A DNA stretch of 64,000 nt from positions 3,162,001 through 3,226,000 of the forward strand of contig NC_089443.1 in the NCBI RefSeq assembly GCF_026210795.1. Reading direction: 5' to 3'. Positions within the stretch are counted from its first letter, which is position 1, and each line of letters opens with the position of its first letter. Positions 5,982 to 27,854 of the stretch are shown piece by piece. The notes under the pieces are model-generated. The model worked only from the letters and a program-made list of their open reading frames with translations, was not told the DNA's origin and did not search any database. This DNA comes from Rhizophagus irregularis. Its lineage: Eukaryota; Glomeromycota; Glomeromycetes; Glomerales; Glomeraceae. The position numbers were made by a program, and so were the translations under genes.

Positions 5982-8900
5982 TTAGCAAGTTTTACTAGCC
6001 AAAGTTATTTTTTTTTGGCGTTTTATATTATTACAAACTTTTTTTTCTTCCTCACACCACAATCTTTTATTTCTAATTCCTCTTGTCTCCTGAGTATTAT
6101 GACCGCTATTAGTATTATTAATGTCATTATTATTGTAAGGTTGTATGACCTGATTCAATATTTCATTTTGTCTATTACCAGAAATATTGTTATTGTTTTC
6201 TGCAATTCTTTGCACTGCATATTCTTTTCTCAAACTTGACAAAAATCTTGCTATCCAACCCTCTACAGTTTTGATCTCTGGAACATCATCTAGTTGGATT
6301 TAACCTTCTTTTGCTAGATTTTGGAGCTCTTTTACCATATCCTTTGCTGACATACGATCTGTTTTGTTTGCATTTTCTGACAAGAAATATCCCTCAAGGT
6401 AAGCTTTACTGTTGCTGTTATATGCTTTCCACTACCTTTTTTTCCATATTTCTGATTATTTCTTAATGCCCATCCATTCGTTAATGAAAAGCTTTCAATA
6501 TCTAAATAAACCACAACAATAACAACAAATTAGAAGCGCAATACTTTTCCAAAAAAATATTTTCTACGCACTTGAAATTGAGTGTACATTTCCGTTAACT
6601 ATCGGGATAATAATATTTGGTAAATATTTTAGGAATAGTCAAATAGAAAATCAAGTTGTGATGAACTTACCATGTATCAGTTTATTATTAGTTGTACATT
6701 GGACTCAGGAAATAGGAAAGTTCCATGTTGTACTTGTTTGGTATTGGTTTAAGTAAGGTGCTTTTACTAATTTTGTAATATCACTAGGTGAAAATCGTGA
6801 CCACGGACCCATGTGAGGCAATGTTTGGACTTAAATATAACCAGCATAATCTCCTGTAATTGGCCATTCAAAGTATGACAACTTGGTAATACCAGCAATT
6901 GTTTTAACAGTTGCATTATTTTTTACTGGCTCGAGATTTGCAACAGAAGTTCCTCCTAATCCAGCAATAGCCGTTTGAATATTTTTCCCTTCATCTAAAC
7001 AATGCCCAATACGTACAAAGGGCGATCAAAATTATCCGGCCAGTTTATTTTGCTAAAATTTTGTTGATCATGATGTGTTAATGTAATATAAATAAGATAT
7101 AATTTTGTATTTATAATCACAATAAACAAATTCCAATGCTTCATATTTTCGAAAATATGAAGTCACCCTATTGTATGAATTTTATTTTTGTGTAAACAAA
7201 CTTAAAAATATTAAAAATATCATAATTTCGCCAATATCGATCTGATCGACCTATCAAAAGAGCTATAAATCGTAAAATTTCAATCACAGGATCAGAAAAT
7301 ATTGTAGATGACATTTAGACTTTTAGAGCGTAATCATGTGATGAATATCGATCCTACAAACATTCAAAATTTCAATCACTAGATCTCAAAATAACCTTAA
7401 CATACAATTTTAAATTTTAAAATTCGCGAATTTCGCAAACTCGAAAAATTTATAATTTACATAGTATTACATTTGCATAATACCTGTAATTAATATGTAA
7501 TATAATGGCATAATACTTTTTCAACATTATGCTTGCATACCTTATTAAATTTTCTGATAAAACTACTTGAAAAGTACTATGTTAAAGTTGCATTGAAAAG
7601 TATTCCTCCAGAATATTATAAAAAATCTATCAATAGCATATCTCTGTGAATTGGGGAGTTATTTTTGCAAATGGAAATAGAATTTATTATTAAAATTTTA
7701 TCTGAATTAGTAAACAAAGACATAATGAATTTGTTTAACTTAAATTTTTATTATTGCTATATTATATATATATAAATTTTTTCAACTTGAAAAGTGGCCG
7801 GATAATTCTGATCGCCCTCTGTATGTATCTCTTTATAGCATGTGCTATCTGTAATAAAAAAAAATTTAATAACAGATAATTCGCATTAATTACAGTTTCT
7901 CACCTGTGCATGATGGGAGTCTACACTTGTTTTAGCTTCTCCTGGCTCCAGAAAATACCACCCACGAACCTCAATATTATACCATTGATGCCAGTTTGTA
8001 ATTAATGTCATTAATTCAGAGTTGTGATAATGCCCGCCATTATCAGATAAAATTTTAACCCATTGTGGTTTTGGATCTAGAGTTTCAAAAACTGCATTAA
8101 AAGAGAATGCAGTGAACCAAGCATCCTGCTTAGTATCTGTAGACCAATGGTCAAAGGCGTGAACATTCAGGTTTGTATCATCCTTTTTTGTAAAAACCAA
8201 AATCGTATGAAGTGTCCATCCTCTTTTCCCAAAAAATTCTTCTTTTGTTTCACGTGCACTTTTTGGTAAAATTCTCATTTTGTAGTCGCATACTAAGATT
8301 GCTCCATATTCATCTAATTCTAGAAGCTGCGCTTTAAATTGACTATTTAGATATACTTTTCTCACCTGATGAGCCAAAAAGTAATGCATTTTATCTTTAG
8401 ATTCTAGATTCTTGGATTGTTTCATGAAAATTTTCAGGAAGAATTGTGATAAGTTCTTGCATTAATATAAATAAATGATCACAATTTGCACATCTGGATT
8501 TATGTTGATTGTTACATTCTCCAACATACCATTTTCATTTACAGAAAGTTCATTTTCAAAGCCTCTTCTTAAATGTAGACGTAATTTTTCAACATCATGG
8601 ATTAATCTATTCTAAAATAAGGATAAGAAATTAGATTTATATTGACTATTATATGTAAGTAATTATATATTTACCTTTGTTTCCTTTTCGTTTATATTCA
8701 ATCGAATTATATTAATCAATGTATCAAAAACTTCATATCCATATTCATTACATATATTGCAGAGGCCACCTAAATCTTTACGATAAACATATCTTCCATT
8801 GGCTAATCTTGCCATAAATGATGCTCGTTTAATACCATCTGGATATGTAAGCTTCAAATTTATCCAAAGTGCTTTTTTATTATCCTTGAGATAAAGAAGT

Positions 8901-20212: not shown

Positions 20213-20220
20213 GCTTCAGT
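20213..20220. repeat. 8-bp target duplication of the hAT element
   Basis: GCTTCAGT is repeated at 26943-26950. It encodes ASV in the interrupted DDE gene, so the unoccupied exon can be read across the junction. Confidence 0.9.
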
Positions 20221-20490
20221 TAAGGATAGTGCTGTAATTGGGCAATTGCAGATTAATTGCAGATCCGCAAACCGCAATTATCTGCAAATCTGTAAAAAAT
20301 CCGCAAATTAGCCAATTAAATACTGTATCACGATCATTACTCAATCTATATATTTATATCGAATCATCAAATTTAGTATTATTACTCACTCTATTATAAT
20401 ATAATCAATTTATAATGCATCAAAACATCAAAACAATTGTATCTAAATTCTTCTTTTTCTATTTACTTTTTTCAACAATTTATTATTAAA

Positions 20491-22853
20491 ATGTCAAAAA
20501 CACCTTCTTCGGCTCTTAATTTAAAGATTCGTGGAAAAAAAGTTGAGCTATTGCCTGAAGACGAAGAATTAATTTCGTTAGCACTGTCAATTATTTGGAC
20601 TAAGTCTAATAAAAAAATTGAATCATGTAATTTTGACCAAGATAAAGTAAGATTATCTTTCAAAAAGAATGAGGGACGCGTTTATTTTGACTTGCAACAA
20701 TCGGCTTTAGATTTTACATTCATCAATAAGGTATTCCATAAGGCCCTTTTTAAATGATTTTGATTTCGCTTATAATTTTTTTTTTCAGTCCACCTTTTTC
20801 CCTTGAATTTTCGTTTCTGGACAATTTTGTCCACTTTTTTTTTGTTCTACCTTTTTCTCGTTTCTGGACAATTTTGTCCACTTTTTTCTGTTCTACCTTT
20901 TTCTCGTTTCTGGACAATTTTGTCCATTTTTTTTTGTTCCACTTTTTTCCCTTGAATTTCCGTTTCTGGACAATTTTGTCCACTTTTCGTTTCTGGACCA
21001 CTTTTTTCTCTTGGTATCAGAACCATTTCATTTTAGAACAAATGATTTCATTTCTGAACAAAATTCATTACTTTTTAGGGTAATTTGGCTAAACTTGAAC
21101 GCTACAAATCGCTATATGAATTATATAAAGGTAGATACGAAGTAATTCGTTTACATTTAAATATGTGAATGAATTTTAATATTTATATCTTAATTTTGTT
21201 TATATTTTATTTGTTTATTTATATATTTTCTAATAATAGCCAGAAAATACACGTTCAACTACATCTGGTACAACTGGTAGCGTGAATGAATCATTAAGAG
21301 AATTGTTACAATATTCAACACCCGAACACACGTGCCTAGAATCCTCTCCCAGCTCGTTATTATATCATAAACCCAACGATTCAGAACTTGCCCGTGTGTT
21401 AAACAGTGATTTATCCATAAATAATCTTTCTACTTCTGACACTGAAACAAAAATTTGGTCGAATTTGAATATACGCTGTATCGAAAAATTTGGCGGACAA
21501 GATCACATAAAAAATGATGTTTCTATTTCTGACATAATGTGGGCCAGTACAACCTTACCTGCGTACCGCAGCTGGAACACAATGAAGAATTATTATGATG
21601 ACATTGATGAATGGATCGCAAAAATTAGTAGCTTCTGTAAGTTAAATTTATCAAATTCTGAAATTGTTCTTGATTATTATATTTTTCTTATAATATTTAT
21701 ATCTAAATTTTCTAGGTACTGCTAATGATGATGAGGATAACAATTTTCAACCTACTGAAGCTGCAAATTCAAGTTCTACTAGGGATGAATCTGGCAACAG
21801 TGAAATTAATGAATTTAACCCACCTTCACAATACAAAGTAGTTCCAGCATCAGCACGAGCATCAACCACGGAAGTTGAAACATCGATGAAACCACCAACA
21901 AGATCAATAACATCTAAAGTAAAATTAGCAACACAAGTGCCAACTAGAGAAGTGATAGTATCTATAGAACCACGGGTACCACCTTCAGAAATGGCAGTGG
22001 AGGAATCAGCAGAATCACAAGCACTAGCTTCAGAAATGGAGGAATCAGAAGAATTAGAAGCATCAACATCTGTGTCGTTATCAAAATCCGTTGTACAAAA
22101 ACGTAATTTCTCAGATGATGATGACGACGACGATGATAAAGCCAAATTATTAAATTCTACCCAATTGTTATTATTCAAAAAGGGAAAGAAACTTCACGAT
22201 ATTTTGTTAGCAGATTCATCGTTTAATGGCGAACTCATTGCTTCTGAAGAATTAAAAGTATCAGATATATCCAATGACTTAAATGAAATGCTGAAAGATG
22301 ACCCAGTCAAAATCGTTGATGAGAAATCTGCTAAAGATCGAATCGATCAATGGCGAAGGCAAGAATTACAATGTGAAAATTTTGTTATAGCCGCTGAGTC
22401 TTTTAATTTATTACATTTGGTGTCCTTGGTCCAAATTTATGATGATCTATTTAAACTTGGAGAAAAATTAAGAACTGACCCTAATAATAATATAAAAACT
22501 ACAAAATCTTGGGTTATTCAGTTCATGCGGTCTGTACTTAAAATTGGCGACAAAATGGAACAAAGGAATAGGTAGGATGTGATCGATTACGAAGGTTATT
22601 TAATGAAGGAATCACGAGTACGCAACTTGCGAAAGCTGGGTGCCGTAAGTGCGATTTTTTCGTTAAACAAGAATATTATGAAGTATTTCTGTCCCAAGTT
22701 CCTACATTAGAAACTCATCGATCAATTTCAAGTTTGTCGAACGAACGTCTTTCTGAAATCTTGTCTACTGCTAATCCAGATAATACTGCACAAAAAAAAA
22801 AGAGAAGAGTTGAATTTATGGGGGAGGAATTCATTAATATAGCGGATAAATAA
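20491..22853 (+). pseudogene. Accessory gene of the hAT transposon, function unknown
   Basis: Four exons fit with GT..AG borders: 20491-20730 (MSKTPSSALNLKIRGKKVEL..), 21079-21141 (GNLAKLERYKSLYELYKG..), 21240-21636 and 21716 onward. The ATG at 20491 was chosen over one 54 bp upstream because of its AAAATG context. Exon 3 holds ISDIMWASTTLPAYRSWNTM. Exon 4 has a low-complexity acidic region with eight aspartates, then IDQWRRQELQCENFVIAAES. A one-base loss near 22570 creates a stop; the other frame continues CDRLRRLFNEGITSTQLAKA..CRKCDFF to a lysine-rich end (KKKRR) at 22853. The CRKC cysteines could bind metal. I do not recognise a named domain. Convergent placement inside the hAT borders and the array in intron 1 suggest a transposon-encoded partner of the transposase. 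Confidence 0.65.
20818..20982 (+). repeat. Left GGACAATTTTGTCC dyad array (4 copies)
   Basis: TGGACAATTTTGTCCA occurs at 20818, 20865, 20911 and 20967, with a partial fifth at about 20995. Spacing is 46-56 bp with T-rich sequence between. It lies within intron 1 of the accessory gene. Each copy is an inverted repeat TGGACAA-TT-TTGTCCA. Confidence 0.85.
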
Positions 22854-23067
22854 AAAAAATAGTGAATACATTGAATATGTTGGTTAGTGGGTAATATCAT
22901 TATCAACAAAGAAGCATGTATTTATATTGGCATAAGTTATACGCGTTAGATAGATAATTAAATGTATAGATAATTAAACGTAACATTTACATATTTTCAA
23001 ATTGCACGGGGAAGCTTCTGTCCAAAGTTTCTAAAGCAAAAAAAAGTAAAGTTTTCTGATTATAAAG

Positions 23068-23179
23068 TGGACAATTTTGTCCAAAATAAAAAATAAAGTT
23101 TTCTGAATACAAAAGTGGACAATTTTGTCCAAAATAAATAATAAAGTTTTCTGAATACAAAAGTGGACAATTTTGTCCA
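23068..23179 (+). repeat. Middle GGACAATTTTGTCC dyad array (3 copies)
   Basis: Copies at 23068, 23116 and 23164, at an exact 48-bp period, with AAAATAAA..AAAGTTTTCTGAATAC between. The array lies between the 3' ends of the two convergent hAT genes. Confidence 0.85.
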
Positions 23180-23306
23180 AAATAAAAAGGGAGGACAAAA
23201 TTGTTGATATGCATTATAAAATACTATCAAATTTATTATATATTAAATGTTCACAATAAGTACAAATATAAATATTATATAGGTAAAATAAAAGTCAAAA
23301 AAAGAA

Positions 23307-25871
23307 TTAGTTTAATTGTTCCGGATCCCATTCCTCTTCGCCATCACTATCATATCTTCGAGTAATAGTTGGAAGTATAGAATTATCAATAAAGACCCAT
23401 GGTTCTAGATCTACCGTGCTTTCAATATCTAATGTTTCATCATTCATATTTGTTTCATCAGATTGATGTTCATTAAAACTATCATCATCATTCTCACTCA
23501 TAATTTCTTCTTCTTCTTCAAATACTGTATTCAGCATGAGTTGAATATCATCATCTAACTTTGAACTGCTATCACCGTTACTTGTATAATTTAAGTCTTT
23601 TTTAGCATGTTTGAGAGAATAAAGATATATTTTCGCCATTGTCTCTATAGTTTCTGATTGCAAATTTATACGTCTCTTACCAAAGAGCCATCCCATGGCT
23701 GAAAATAATCTTTCACAACTTGCCGAGTGTGGGGTTATTGAAAATATTACTTTAGCTAGCCGCGAAAGAGAAGAAAATTTCCCATCAACTATGGAATTCC
23801 ACCAATGGTAAGCTGTGTCATGAACTGAATAAGACGTGTTATATGGTTCAGAATTATCAAAGTATGCACGAAGTTGTGCATCAAGTTCTAATCCAGAATT
23901 TTTTTTATGCCCAAGGTTTTTCCAGATTCGAAGGGCACACTTTCTGAATTTAAATAACAATAAAAAAATAATTACCTCAGTATTTAGGATGAAAGAAGAA
24001 ACCTAACAAATAGATATCCTCGTCAAACTCTTTATATCTATTAAAAAAATATTTAAAATTAAACATTAATTTTGAATCTTCTATTAAAGATACTAACCTA
24101 ATACATTACCGCTTATTAAAAATGCTAATACAAGAGTTTCTTAACTCTTTATAATCATCAGTTGGCATTGACTTAAAAAATGCTGCGATACGAAGAAGAT
24201 GCAGATAACAATCTGCTAAAGTTACATTACTTCCTTCTAACATGAGAATTGCTTTTTTTATCGGCTCCAAAATATCCGATAAAATACGAATGTCATCAAA
24301 AAACCCTCTTTTTTCAAAATTGCTTTTACAGCTTCATTAGAGATTTCGCGTTCATGATTGTCCAGGACCTAATTGAATAAACATTTTTGTATTAGGTTTA
24401 ATTATTATTAATTTAAAGGCAATTTCTATTTGTACATGGGGTGTTTAAACACGGGTCATATTAGTAGATTAAAAATGGCATTCAAACTCTCCTTTAATGC
24501 CTTAAGTAAACTTGCAGAGCAGGTGAAAATACATATATTTATCTGTAATATAATAAGAATAAAAAGTAAAAGAGTATAATGTCGGTAGCATTCAATTTCA
24601 AATTAAAAAACAAAAAATTAGTCTATTAAAAATTATATTTATATGACCCGTGTACAAACACCCCGTGTAAACTTAGAAATTTTCTAATTTAAATATAAAG
24701 TATACGTACATGTAATAAAGCATCTTTTAATCTGTACACCGAAGATATACATTCATGGACTGTCGTCCATCTTGTTTCGATGTACGTTTTCAGCCCTCCA
24801 CCTGCAATATTTTTTGCATCAATCGCAACTTTAAGCCAAGTGCTGGCAAGGGTTGAATTTTTGAAGTATCTTGTTAAAATATTTGCTCGTTTTACAAGAC
24901 ATTTAACTTGATCTACTATGACAATATCACTACTTATCAGATTGATGCAATGGGCGATGCATCGTATATTGATAATGGATGGATATTCATTCGTGATTAT
25001 TCGACGGGCACCTGCGACATTGGCAGCATTGTCACTGACAATAGCGACAATTTTGCTTATACCCACTTTACAAATTATATCATTTATAACTTTTGATAAA
25101 TATTCAGCGGTATGTGAATTTTTAGAAAGGTCTTCAAGTTGTAATAGATATTCCTTTCTCGATGGTGTCAGCAAAATAAACGCCCATAAGCTATTCCCTC
25201 AAGGGTCTGTCCAACCATCAAGAGCTAATAAAAAATATATGGATAGTTATTTTTTTAATAAAATATTTTGAAGCAATTATAGAAATTATAGATTTACCGA
25301 TAGTAAAATTAGACTCTTTTTCTAATTCATTGTTGACTCGTGCATTGACTCTGGATAATTCCGCCTCCAATAAAGTACCGTTTAGTACTCGTCGTGAAGG
25401 TGGATCGTATCCTGGCTCCAGCGCCTTTATCATGTCGATAAACCAAGGATTATCGATTGTGCTAAAGGGTATGTTGCACATCACGTAGGCTTTCGTTATC
25501 ACCCGGTCTAATTCATCACTCCGTCCTTTTTCTATTTTACCTCCTCCGTAAAAATTCTTAATTCCCGTTTGTCGAACCCTTTTGTTAGAATAATCTGATT
25601 CATCTTCATCTGCGCTTTCTTTTTCTTCTTTAGCAAGATTTTTCCTGACAATTTTGGCAAAATACAATGAAACATCATCGGGGCATTTTTTACAGTGGTT
25701 TGCCAAATGTGCACTGAGGACTTGGGGCCTTCCTTGTCTCCAGTATTGTCGACAGTAACTACACGTCGCTGAATAGTGTCCTCTCGACTGCACGTTACCT
25801 TGTATCATATGATTACACCATACATCTGATAGTGGTCGACTTTTGCTTACCTTAGAAGGACCGCTTGACAT
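23307..25871 (-). pseudogene. hAT transposase with BED zinc finger (five exons, broken)
   Basis: Exons on the minus strand: 25871-25298, 25224-24710, 24368-24110, 24037-23976, 23943-23307. Exon 1 has a BED-type finger (W18, C37-x2-C40, H55, H59/C60). Exon 2 reads LDGWTDP, then IVAIVSDNAANVAGARRI and NIRCIAHCINLISSDIV, a DUF659-like hAT core with the DNAAN and RCIAH motifs. The last exon has the C-terminal dimerisation region (WWNSIV..LAKVIFSITPHSASCERLFS). An acidic tail ends in EEEWDPEQLN. A TGA at 25201-25199 replaces the expected Arg codon after WTDP, and a frameshift occurs at an A-run near 24325, so it is inactive. The right dyad array lies 170-460 bp upstream of the start. Confidence 0.8.
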
Positions 25872-26044
25872 GACGTTATAAAGAGCAAAACTTGAAATTA
25901 AAAGAGTTTGTCATCAATATCGTTTTAAAGTTTGATTTAGTAGTACAAGATGTTGATTGATTAAGATCACGCCTAATTGTAAATTGTGAAGTTTAAATTT
26001 CAATAATATGAAAATTTGTAAATTTAACTGGACAAAGAGAAAAA

Positions 26045-26334
26045 TTGAACAAAATTGTCCAGAAACAATACGAGGAATAAGGTGACCAGAAATGATACAA
26101 GAAAAAAAAGTGGACAAAATTGTCCAGAAGCGATGGATGTCCAAAAATGATAGAAAAAAAAGTGGACAAAATTGTCCAGAAGCGATGGATGTCCAAAAAT
26201 GATAGAAAAAAAAGTGGACAAAATTGTCCAGAAGCGATGGATGTCCAAAAATGATAGAAAAAAAAGTGGACAAAATTGTCCAGAAGCGATGGATGTCCAA
26301 AAATGATAGAAAAAAAGTGGACAAAAATTGTCCA
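26045..26334 (-). repeat. Right GGACAAAATTGTCC dyad array (5-6 copies)
   Basis: TGGACAAAATTGTCCA at 26111, 26163, 26215 and 26267 at an exact 52-bp period, a +1 variant at 26318 and a degenerate one at about 26047. Each unit also has a half-site GATGGATGTCC. The motif is the complement of the left and middle arrays, so left and right arrays point in opposite directions. It sits directly upstream of the transposase start. Confidence 0.85.
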
Positions 26335-26572
26335 GAAATATTACGAGTAAAAAGTGTATAAAATTGAATCAAAGAAGTCTTGGTATAGCATGATATCATC
26401 ATCAGACGAAGTTGATTGTGATGAATAAATAGTATGTTTAATTCAGTATAATAACTTTGACAAAAAAAAAATTATAAAAATAACACTTCTAATTTCAACA
26501 ATTTTTAATATGTCGGGATGACGAATTCTTTATTTTGAATTGATGGTTTTTTACTTGATATTATTTTATTTA

Positions 26573-26890
26573 ACATTGCGGATTTGCGATACAGTATTGA
26601 TTTACGGATTCATTGCAGATTTGCGATACAGTATTGATTTGTGGATTCATTGCGAACTTGCGGATTCATTGCGGATTTGTGATACAGTATTGATTTGCGG
26701 ATTCATTACAGACTTGCGGATTCATTGCGGATTTGTGATACAGTATTGATTTGCGGATTCATTACAGACTTGCGGATTCATTGCGGATTTGCGATACAGT
26801 ATTGATTTGCGGATTCATTGTGGACTTGCAGATTCATTGCGGATATGCGGATTCATTGCGGATATGCGGACTCATATGCGCAATTCAATT
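26573..26890. repeat. Right subterminal GCGGATT minisatellite of the hAT element
   Basis: Irregular repeats of TTGCGGATTCATTGCGGATT and GCGATACAGTATTGATTTG. A short counterpart with CCGCAAACCGCAATTATC and ACTGTATCACGATC lies at 20250-20335 near the left end, in inverse orientation. Subterminal repeats of this kind are transposase-binding sites in other hAT elements. The open frames here only follow the repeat. Confidence 0.75.
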
Positions 26891-27854
26891 CTTAAATCCG
26901 CAATACTGCAGATTTGGAAAAGCAATTTCGGCGCCATCCTTAGCTTCAGTATTTTCGCAAGATGTTGTTCTGATTTCACAGGATGACAAAGCCAAGGTAG
27001 AGAAGTTTTTTATGCTATTTTTGGTTTTTTTTTAATAATTTTAGGTGATCATTAGGTTCCACTAGGGATCGCAGCAGTTGGAAAATCATTTAAAACTTTA
27101 CAGACAGTAAACGAACCTGTATCCGTTCCTGACCATGATTTTCCAAAGGGTACTAAGCATAAACTAATTCCATCCGTTTATTTGGTGATTAATCCTAGTA
27201 ACACCAATGATTCCTTACACTCTGGTAAAATGAGAATATTTGTTCGCCCTGAATACTTTTTGGGAACCTCATGTGAAACACATATGGTTGACCTTGTAAA
27301 AATCACTGAAAAGGAGTCTTTCCATGAATTTACGCATCATGATGGTATTGTTAAACCTATTTGGTGTTTATTAACGGATGGTGGACCTGATAAGAATCCT
27401 CAGTTTCTGGCCAATATTATGAAATATGCACTATTGTTTAAAAAACTTGATTTGGATTATCTTACAGTGTGAACACATGCACCGGAACAGTCAGCATATA
27501 ACTTAGTAGAACGAAGCATGGCATAACTTTCTGGAAAGTTGGCAGGAATTGTGTTTAATACTTTTAATTATGGAAATCACCTTGGTAACATGAATGGGCA
27601 AAGTACTATAATTGATGAAGAACTTGCTCATAAAAACTTCAAGCATGCCGGAGACCATCTTTGTGAAATTTGAAATCGTGATCTTATCAATGGGCATCCA
27701 GTTGATGTTACTTATATTGATGGACATGATCATAATATTTTTTTAGATACTGAAGTGATGTGGGATTGGATTGATCGTCATTCACAAATTTGCAAATATT
27801 CACTTGATTTACGCAAATGCAATAACAGGGATTGCTGTAGACCACCAAGAGCTC

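Follow-up and report, generated by a model that had tools for sequence, protein, structure and literature searches.

A hAT transposon of Rhizophagus irregularis carries, beside its transposase gene, an accessory gene and three arrays of the 16-mer dyad TGGACAA(N2)TTGTCCA, and a related gene with the same dyad occurs in a KDZ transposon. Judged by their distribution over the genome, the accessory gene and the dyad arrays are parts of a single module: they co-occur, they are common to hAT and KDZ elements, and they are jointly absent from L046, a hAT that falls among the carriers. Our preferred reading, to which we give a probability of about 0.6, is that the accessory protein binds the dyad arrays and most likely counters silencing, in a VANC-like manner.

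The hAT element and its two genes

The window is a stretch of 64,000 nucleotides, in which an element of a family that we call F1 occupies exactly positions 20221–26942. Its features are as follows.

20213..20220, no strand: left copy of the 8-bp target-site duplication GCTTCAGT, from flank comparison
20221..26942, no strand: the complete hAT element, of family F1, whose ends TAAGGATRGYGCYG recur in six other F1 copies
20491..22853, + strand: accessory gene, predicted exons 20491-20730, 21079-21141, 21240-21636 and 21716 to 22853, splice sites inferred
20818..20982, + strand: left dyad array, four copies within accessory intron 1, spacings 47, 46, 56
23068..23179, + strand: middle dyad array, three copies between the convergent 3' gene ends, spacings 48, 48
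23307..25882, − strand: interrupted gene of the hAT transposase, with DUF659, a hAT dimerisation domain and, judged by eye, a BED-like N-terminus
24421..24681, no strand: small insertion with 46-nt inverted-repeat arms, 83% complementary, absent from all 14 other F1 copies
26046..26334, − strand: right array of dyads, on the upstream side of the transposase, with four exact copies, one whose spacer has an extra base and one with one mismatch
26574..26880, no strand: array of terminal repeats of the GCGGATT type close to the right end, candidate sites for the transposase
26943..26950, no strand: right copy of the target-site duplication, from flank comparison

The assignment to hAT made in the preliminary description is correct: the ends are exact, the 8-bp duplication lies beside short terminal inverted repeats, and the transposase exons match DUF659 (PF04937, E 2e-17) and Dimer_Tnp_hAT (PF05699, E 1e-7) in Pfam, both above cut-off. 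Perfect 8-bp duplications were found in the window and in six other F1 copies, that is, in seven of the nine copies with both end motifs (15 copies in total); the six other copies have differing duplications at the same element ends. When the empty site was rebuilt by joining the flanks, a 133-aa stop-to-stop reading frame ran across the junction. A BED-type Cys/His pattern can be seen by eye in the N-terminal exon of the transposase; Pfam gave no zf-BED match at E 0.1. Neither gene of the window copy is whole: the accessory frame is broken near 22572, where other copies are open, and the 261-bp insertion interrupts the transposase gene.

The second, convergent gene was also correctly described. 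Against Pfam its predicted exons gave nothing above cut-off (exon 1 has two sub-threshold matches, E 0.06 and 0.08), and those submitted to NCBIfam gave zero matches. Comparison with solved structures returned only matches at E 0.1–1, and no known DNA-binding domain was found by domain profile and solved-structure searches. Two single-sequence AlphaFold predictions of the window exons had pLDDT values of 38 and 35, and the models were unusable.

The window holds 11 exact dyads, one whose spacer has an extra base (26318) and one single-mismatch copy (26046). With up to three mismatches allowed, there are 25 strand-wise matches versus 1.16 expected, a number reached in 0 of 100 shuffles. These copies bear out the three arrays in the places described earlier, with directions + + −, so that left and right are opposed. 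The arrays had also been called phased; a phasing with the DNA helix is not supported. Spacings are not uniform across the three arrays (52, 52, 52 and 51 within 26111–26334), and 20 distinct F1 spacings have no 10–11 bp period (p 0.38–0.98). Among 50 spacings from the related families F2 and F3, p was only 0.04 at 10.0 and 10.4, 0.06 at 10.5 and 0.13 at 10.6.

Related hAT elements with and without the accessory gene

All 15 F1 copies found contain the accessory gene and dyads, in the left array in 15/15, the middle in 14/15 and the right in 14/15. The number of units differs widely: where the right array was found, it has from 3 to 17 dyads. F2 and F3, two further hAT families with eight loci, retain the accessory gene, whose C-terminal exon has 43–58% identity in the main matches, and the arrays. 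Dyads lie between the genes at 8/8 of these loci, beyond the transposase at 6/8, and in accessory intron 1 at 7/8, those where the DNA analysed covers it. The two genes are in tandem in F2 and F3 whereas they are convergent in F1. An inversion of the whole array–transposase–array block between F1 and F2 was considered and rejected, because the array directions (+ − + in F2) do not fit it. A search with the F1 end motif did not locate the termini of F2 or F3.

Other hAT elements lack the module. The transposase of L046 is sister to that of F2 (support 98/97) and about as close as F2's, and neither accessory gene nor dyad is present in the 5.8 kb analysed. The dyad is likewise absent from L037 and L039, two accessory-less hATs, with which the partial, long-branched F3 row groups in the transposase tree, apart from F1 and F2. 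Among the 150 transposase matches listed, an accessory gene lies within 10 kb in all 15 that have at least 90% identity, in 7 of the 11 at 58–90% (the other four being without an accessory match), in 0/69 at 50–58% and in 1/55 at 30–50%.

KDZ transposons with accessory genes

C5:487168-504588 is a complete KDZ element of 17.4 kb, with a transposase unrelated to that of hAT. Its KDZ domain matches PF18758 at E 1.2e-30 with a score of 107 against a cut-off of 26.6 bits, and an 8-bp duplication, CCTACCAC, flanks its CACCCAATCC ends; 8 bp is the length given for Zisupton target-site duplications in the relevant passage of PMC12730594. Dyads occur at each of its ends and within intron 1 of the accessory gene, and the accessory domain is 53% identical to that of F1 over 236 aa. 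This element and the C2 palindrome alike have subterminal arrays at their two ends, inverted in orientation.

In two other KDZ transposons, KDZ-A and KDZ-B, the arrays that precede the accessory gene on its upstream side consist of the palindrome ACGCGT, and the TGGACA dyad is absent from the DNA analysed for them. The KDZ transposase domains of C5 and KDZ-A are 72% identical, but their accessory proteins only 30%. The accessory tree separates KDZ-A and KDZ-B from a group of C5, the hATs and two stand-alone genes with support of 100/100.

Genome-wide association of the dyad with the accessory gene

The whole genome contains 318 exact dyads and none of the reversed control. We read 287 of them in context, and 259 are in elements with an accessory gene; the other 28 comprise 18 in KDZ-ended sequences, one in a hAT-ended sequence and nine unexplained. 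Of 34 sites with the variant TGGACAACTTTGTCCA, 33 lie no more than 5 kb from an accessory locus, and such regions make up about 0.3% of the genome. The preliminary description had named wide occurrence of the dyad array outside this transposon as evidence against its reading; dyads are indeed found outside it, but mostly beside relatives of the accessory gene. The dyad tracks the accessory gene, not the transposase.

Some loci have only part of the module. Two accessory relatives, C13 and C21, are accompanied by no dyad and no transposase in the DNA analysed. No gene that could be named was seen at L033, where C18 has eight dyads, or in L038, the DNA upstream of it. At L035 there is a single dyad, for which no explanation was found.

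Selection and CpG decay

The pN/pS of the accessory gene is 0.48 and 0.63 for two F1 exons, 0.40 for the F2 domain and 0.59 for the F2 C-terminal exon. Within F1 tandem units, purifying selection on the dyad was not seen (mismatches 0.042 in the dyad versus 0.030 in the rest, p 0.07). In the C5 and L034 units the dyad is more variable than the rest, partly from one differing base at the dyad edge.

Methylation has probably acted on F1 elements, because transitions at CpG exceed those at other C/G (4.7% versus 1.2%). At distances of up to 150 bp from a dyad, CpG decay is lower than elsewhere (2.1% versus 4.1%; p 0.02 by permutation), a difference that is not significant without the array columns (p 0.14). 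A pair of accessory-less hATs also has CpG change, at 8/22 differences.

Probable function of the accessory protein

The preliminary description offered either the BED finger or the accessory protein as the binder of the dyad. The evidence favours the latter, because the dyad is also found in a KDZ element, whose accessory gene is related but whose transposase is not, and because it is missing from L046, which has a similar transposase and is accessory-less. A transposase as dyad binder was judged unlikely on L046, L037, L039 and the C5 element, and we give very little credence to the dyads being subterminal sites for the hAT BED finger. The right array does lie upstream of the transposase, and hAT transposases bind subterminal repeats (stated in the part of PMC8097297 used here), but the F1 ends have separate GCGGATT repeats, and it is probably sites such as these that the hAT transposase uses. 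The earlier suggestion of a coupling between transposition and transcription finds no support in this analysis.

The accessory protein would then be a sequence-specific DNA-binding protein that recognises TGGACAA(N2)TTGTCCA, which we consider likely, and binding is probably as a dimer, since the site is a dyad. It would coat the arrays that lie in non-coding DNA of its own element family, and the coated element would stay transcribable and mobile. The likely route would be by opposing DNA-methylation silencing, as VANC proteins do on Arabidopsis VANDAL elements; given binding, we put the chances of an anti-silencing role at about even. Several results weigh against the preferred reading: the searches that found no known DNA-binding domain, the poor single-sequence models, the dyad that is no better conserved than the rest of its unit, the CpG difference that loses significance without array columns and the CpG change in accessory-less hATs, the C13 and C21 relatives, the 28 dyads away from an accessory gene, the place of F3 in the transposase tree and the 4/11 hAT matches without an accessory match. 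More tentatively, the protein gene and the sites that the protein reads might be a portable module that moves as a unit between the unrelated superfamilies hAT and KDZ. Changes in protein and palindrome would go hand in hand, and each element in this arbuscular mycorrhizal fungus would be privately protected from host silencing, or activated against it.

The protein might instead bind the dyads as a co-factor of transposition that bridges or compacts the element ends, as Spm/En TnpA does, with no part in anti-silencing. The inverted subterminal arrays of the C5 element and the C2 palindrome would suit this, but the hAT families have one array between the genes, and KDZ-A and KDZ-B a single ACGCGT array, 5' of the accessory gene, in DNA that may not extend to both element ends; we consider it unlikely. 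ACGCGT is known in yeasts as the MluI cell-cycle box, one of the established kinds of site in fungal promoters, and it could be argued that it and the dyad arrays are alike sites for a host transcription factor driving the element genes, the more so as arrays lie near the accessory 5' end in F1, F2, F3, the C5 element, KDZ-A and KDZ-B. We find this more doubtful still, as most exact dyads read in context are inside transposons and L046 loses dyad and accessory gene together. It is hardly credible that the arrays are selfish tandem repeats with no protein ligand, expanding in non-coding DNA: the widely varying unit number and a dyad no more conserved than its unit within arrays would be expected, but the dyad is kept across families while the unit sequence differs, and its place relative to the gene is unchanged between the hAT and KDZ superfamilies.

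Comparison with known systems

VANDAL elements belong to the MULE superfamily of plants; here, by contrast, gene and sites are in hAT and KDZ elements of a fungus. The passages of PMC5735166 on VANC describe a non-transposase protein, encoded by the transposon, with an anti-silencing function. Its motifs are short and form tandem arrays in non-coding parts, including accessory introns and upstream of the transposase; related VANC proteins have different motifs, and the VANC6 motif also occurs in a non-VANDAL transposon. The accessory gene, the non-coding arrays and the motif that changes with the protein are all paralleled here, with the arrays taken as the protein's own target from co-occurrence. 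Because the accessory exons scanned had no match at E 0.1 to DUF1985 or DUF287, the domains named for VANC in that source, we say that the system works like VANC and not that it is one. For an effect on methylation like that of VANC, CpG decay is a weak proxy.

Spm/En TnpA is an accessory protein that binds repeated subterminal sites of its own element. It resembles our case by description, in the combination of protein and repeated sites, and differs in belonging to the CACTA superfamily of plants. Fungal DNA transposons with TET/JBP genes, as treated in the sections of PMC12730594 drawn on here, have an accessory gene that is thought to act against methylation and has moved between superfamilies, with hAT and KDZ members as in our case. 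That gene encodes an enzyme, unlike ours, its carriers are in Basidiomycota and Ascomycota, and those sections do not mention cognate arrays; 'Glomero' and 'Rhizophagus' are absent from the text. Harbinger and Nuwa elements (same source, in part) likewise pair a transposase with a partner, a Myb/SANT DNA-binding protein, in another superfamily; no Myb/SANT domain was found in the accessory exons scanned. In open papers we found no earlier description of the accessory gene or the dyad, and the 16-mer itself is unmentioned.

If our reading is true, this is a sequence-specific accessory system encoded by transposons in a fungus, unusual in that the unit of gene and sites is found in two transposase superfamilies. 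In R. irregularis some recently expanded transposons, including hATs, have numerous copies with low methylation, according to the part of PMC8647823 consulted, and the module might then help to explain such copies. Similar transposases with and without the module, and members of the same superfamily with different modules, form natural pairs in which its role is directly testable.

The window hAT element and its family

The genome searched comprises 146,748,485 bases on 32 contigs, with the window at C15:3162001-3226000. All components ascribed to the element in the preliminary description (8-bp duplication, hAT termini, transposase gene, accessory gene and three dyad arrays) were found:

window 20221-26942: whole hAT element, ends TAAGGATRGYGCYG, target duplication GCTTCAGT on both sides

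The minus-strand gene matches DUF659 and Dimer_Tnp_hAT in Pfam, and the plus-strand accessory gene matches no Pfam family above the cut-off. Exact 16-bp dyads of the form TGGACAA(N2)TTGTCCA number 11 across the three arrays, which also include one copy whose spacer is longer and another with a single mismatch. Joining the flanks yields a 133-aa stop-to-stop frame, and insertion of the element therefore probably broke an open frame. The window copy has itself decayed, with a break in the accessory frame near 22572 and a 261-bp insertion in the transposase gene (24421-24681) that has 46-nt inverted-repeat arms, looks like a MITE and is not present in the 14 other copies of the family. Some of those copies have longer open frames for the accessory and transposase parts that are broken here.

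This family, F1, has 15 copies: the window copy and 14 in L001-L015, with one copy split between L013 and L014. Both end motifs were located in 9 copies; 7 of these are flanked by perfect 8-bp duplications, which differ in sequence, and the other two (L004 and L011) have no matching duplication. Left dyads occur in all 15 copies (a single one in L010), middle dyads in 14 (L010 is deleted there) and right dyads in 14 (the match of the C29 copy stops short of this array). The array directions (+, +, −) are constant and the number of units varies, the right array, where found, having 3 to 17 dyads. The preliminary description asked whether position and number are kept: position is, in nearly all copies, and the number of units is not.

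Other hAT families with the accessory gene

Two further families carry both the accessory gene and dyads: F2 (L016, L017, L018, L020, L021, L022 and L029) and F3 (L019, probably also L032). Leaving L032 aside, the two genes are in tandem rather than convergent wherever both can be read; dyads lie between the genes in all eight loci and beyond the transposase in six of the eight. Dyads in accessory intron 1 were found in six fetched F2/F3 stretches and, by a genome-wide variant search, in L022; L029 was not covered. The array directions are +, −, + where all three can be read. The usual form in F2 intron 1 is TGGACAACTTTGTCCA, which has 34 sites genome-wide (reversed control, 0). Of these, 33 are no more than 5 kb from an accessory locus; such stretches amount to about 0.3% of the genome. 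Accessory homology was the sole basis for fetching six accessory loci: L040-L043 all contain dyads, two variant dyads lie 0.8-1.1 kb past the fetched end of L045, and L044 has no dyad in the fetched part. L032 (C18) has at 8252-8761 a reading frame with a LLVCGGSHSGKTN nucleotide-binding motif, which we take to be reminiscent of the packaging ATPases of large DNA viruses or Mavericks.

A KDZ element with a related accessory gene and the same dyad

C5:487168-504588: KDZ element, ends CACCCAATCC, duplication CCTACCAC on both sides
C2:1730881-1743170 (L027 1-9901, L028 1-2800): near-perfect palindrome of 12.3 kb, 98% over 9.3 kb, duplication AGATTTGT

The C5 element encodes a KDZ transposase domain (PF18758, 1.2e-30) together with an accessory gene. 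It has 8 exact, outward-pointing dyads at each end and one exact dyad in accessory intron 1, and its left end keeps a 49-bp period through at least 25 registers. The C2 palindrome has the C5 ends, dyad arrays at both ends and no reading frame over 77 aa; a C7 sequence (L034) has a C5-type end (one end seen) and dyads. When 23 KDZ matches were grouped into 14 loci, 11 proved to have an accessory relative no more than 10 kb away, and the remaining three are partial matches under 70 bits.

The dyad follows the accessory protein

C5 and KDZ-A (L030) share 72% identity in the KDZ domain but 30% in the accessory protein; between C5 and F1, identity in the accessory protein is 53% over 236 residues. 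In the accessory tree, KDZ-A and KDZ-B split with support of 100/100 from a group of C5, the hAT families and two stand-alone genes, within which C5 may be closest either to the hAT families or to the stand-alone genes. A search of the 9.0 and 9.9 kb fetched for KDZ-A and KDZ-B found no TGGACA dyad, even allowing up to two mismatches in the arms; directly upstream of the first accessory exon recognizable by eye, both have tandem arrays built around ACGCGT (L030 7276-7579; L031 3119-3575), a motif that in our view resembles the yeast MluI cell-cycle box. Judged from these sequences, the dyad appears to track the accessory protein, and the motif to change with it. Either the BED finger or the accessory protein had been suggested as the binder; the accessory protein is favored by this tracking, and the F1 transposase more likely has its candidate sites in the terminal GCGGATT repeats. 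Many hAT-derived BED proteins prefer CGG, but the one R. irregularis protein tested had an AT-rich motif (excerpts of PMC8097297).

Among hAT elements, 150 transposase loci were scored out of 589 candidates. The proportion of loci with an accessory relative 10 kb away or less is 15/15 at ≥90% transposase identity, 7/11 at 58-90%, 0/69 at 50-58% and 1/55 at 30-50%, the single locus in the last class being the neighbor of an F1 copy. The transposase of L046 groups with F2 (98/97), and the 5.8 kb of L046 contain neither an accessory gene nor a dyad, even with as many as three arm mismatches allowed; gene and dyads are therefore missing together inside the carriers' clade, through either joint loss or separate joint gains. 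L037 and L039, of the 55% group, likewise have no dyad in 4.5 and 4.0 kb. A caveat is that the F3 row, which is partial and long-branched, falls with these two in the transposase tree, and that the program warns of false joins.

Several observations count against binding by the accessory protein. No DNA-binding domain was recognized in it, structure prediction gave no usable model, and the dyads within arrays are no better conserved than the rest of the unit. Accessory relatives at C13:692480 (L025 2385-4545) and C21:3459101 (L026 2661-4742) have open reading frames (468 and 480 aa), and the DNA fetched there contains neither dyad nor transposase; these two relatives may be host genes, either the source of the module or its domesticated form. 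The genome contains 318 exact dyads, of which 287 lie in fetched loci and were read in context. Outside accessory-bearing elements there are 28 of these 287: 18 in KDZ-ended sequences, eight in L033, and one each in L035 and L036. The L033 dyads form a tandem array (779-1803; C18:3475500-3477500) with no nameable gene in 3.2 kb upstream, about 15 kb from a KDZ fragment at C18:3491586-3492636. L036 (467-758; C9:720700-722200), with its dyad at 743, 276 bp from a hAT-like end TAAGGATGG identified by eye, and with CCGCAAT repeats, is probably a short non-autonomous hAT relative.

Proposed function and novelty

In the VANC anti-silencing system of Arabidopsis VANDAL elements, the introns of VANC21 and VANB21 contain arrays, as does the region upstream of VANA21, and the VANC6 and VANC21 motifs differ (sections of PMC5735166). 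The arrays of our hAT elements fill several non-coding spaces, including the accessory intron, whatever the gene orientation; as with VANC and its targets, the motif varies with the protein. Because array layout and motif change match in this way, we propose that the accessory protein is a DNA-binding companion that would mark its own element and keep it active. The main rival is that it bridges the ends in transposition, nearer to TnpA, the Spm/En accessory protein, which has such a bridging role; this would fit the subterminal arrays of the C5 KDZ element.

A second gene in a hAT element is not in itself new, since TET-carrying hAT elements are known from rust fungi (PMC12730594, in the portion consulted). 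The literature searched contained no description of this particular gene, of the dyad, or of a shared gene-plus-site module. The surprising part is that gene and site are common to two transposon superfamilies.

Selection and silencing

Relative to L003, pN/pS is 0.48 and 0.63 for F1 accessory exons and 1.35 and 1.42 for two transposase exons; among F2 it is 0.40 for the conserved accessory domain, 0.59 for the C-terminal accessory exon and 0.68 for a transposase exon. The pairs share one reference and are not independent, so these values are descriptive. They nonetheless suggest that the accessory gene is kept.

In F1 copies, transitions affect 4.7% of CpG cells, compared with 1.2% for C or G outside CpG, an excess indicative of past methylation. 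Transposable elements of R. irregularis are reportedly methylated, recently expanded hAT being one of the families in which many copies are lowly methylated (PMC8647823, in part). Within 150 bp of a dyad, CpG decay affects 13/608 cells versus 161/3893 elsewhere (permutation p 0.02), or 8/320 when array columns are removed (p 0.14). In the accessory-less pair L037/L039, 8 of 22 differences are at CpG.
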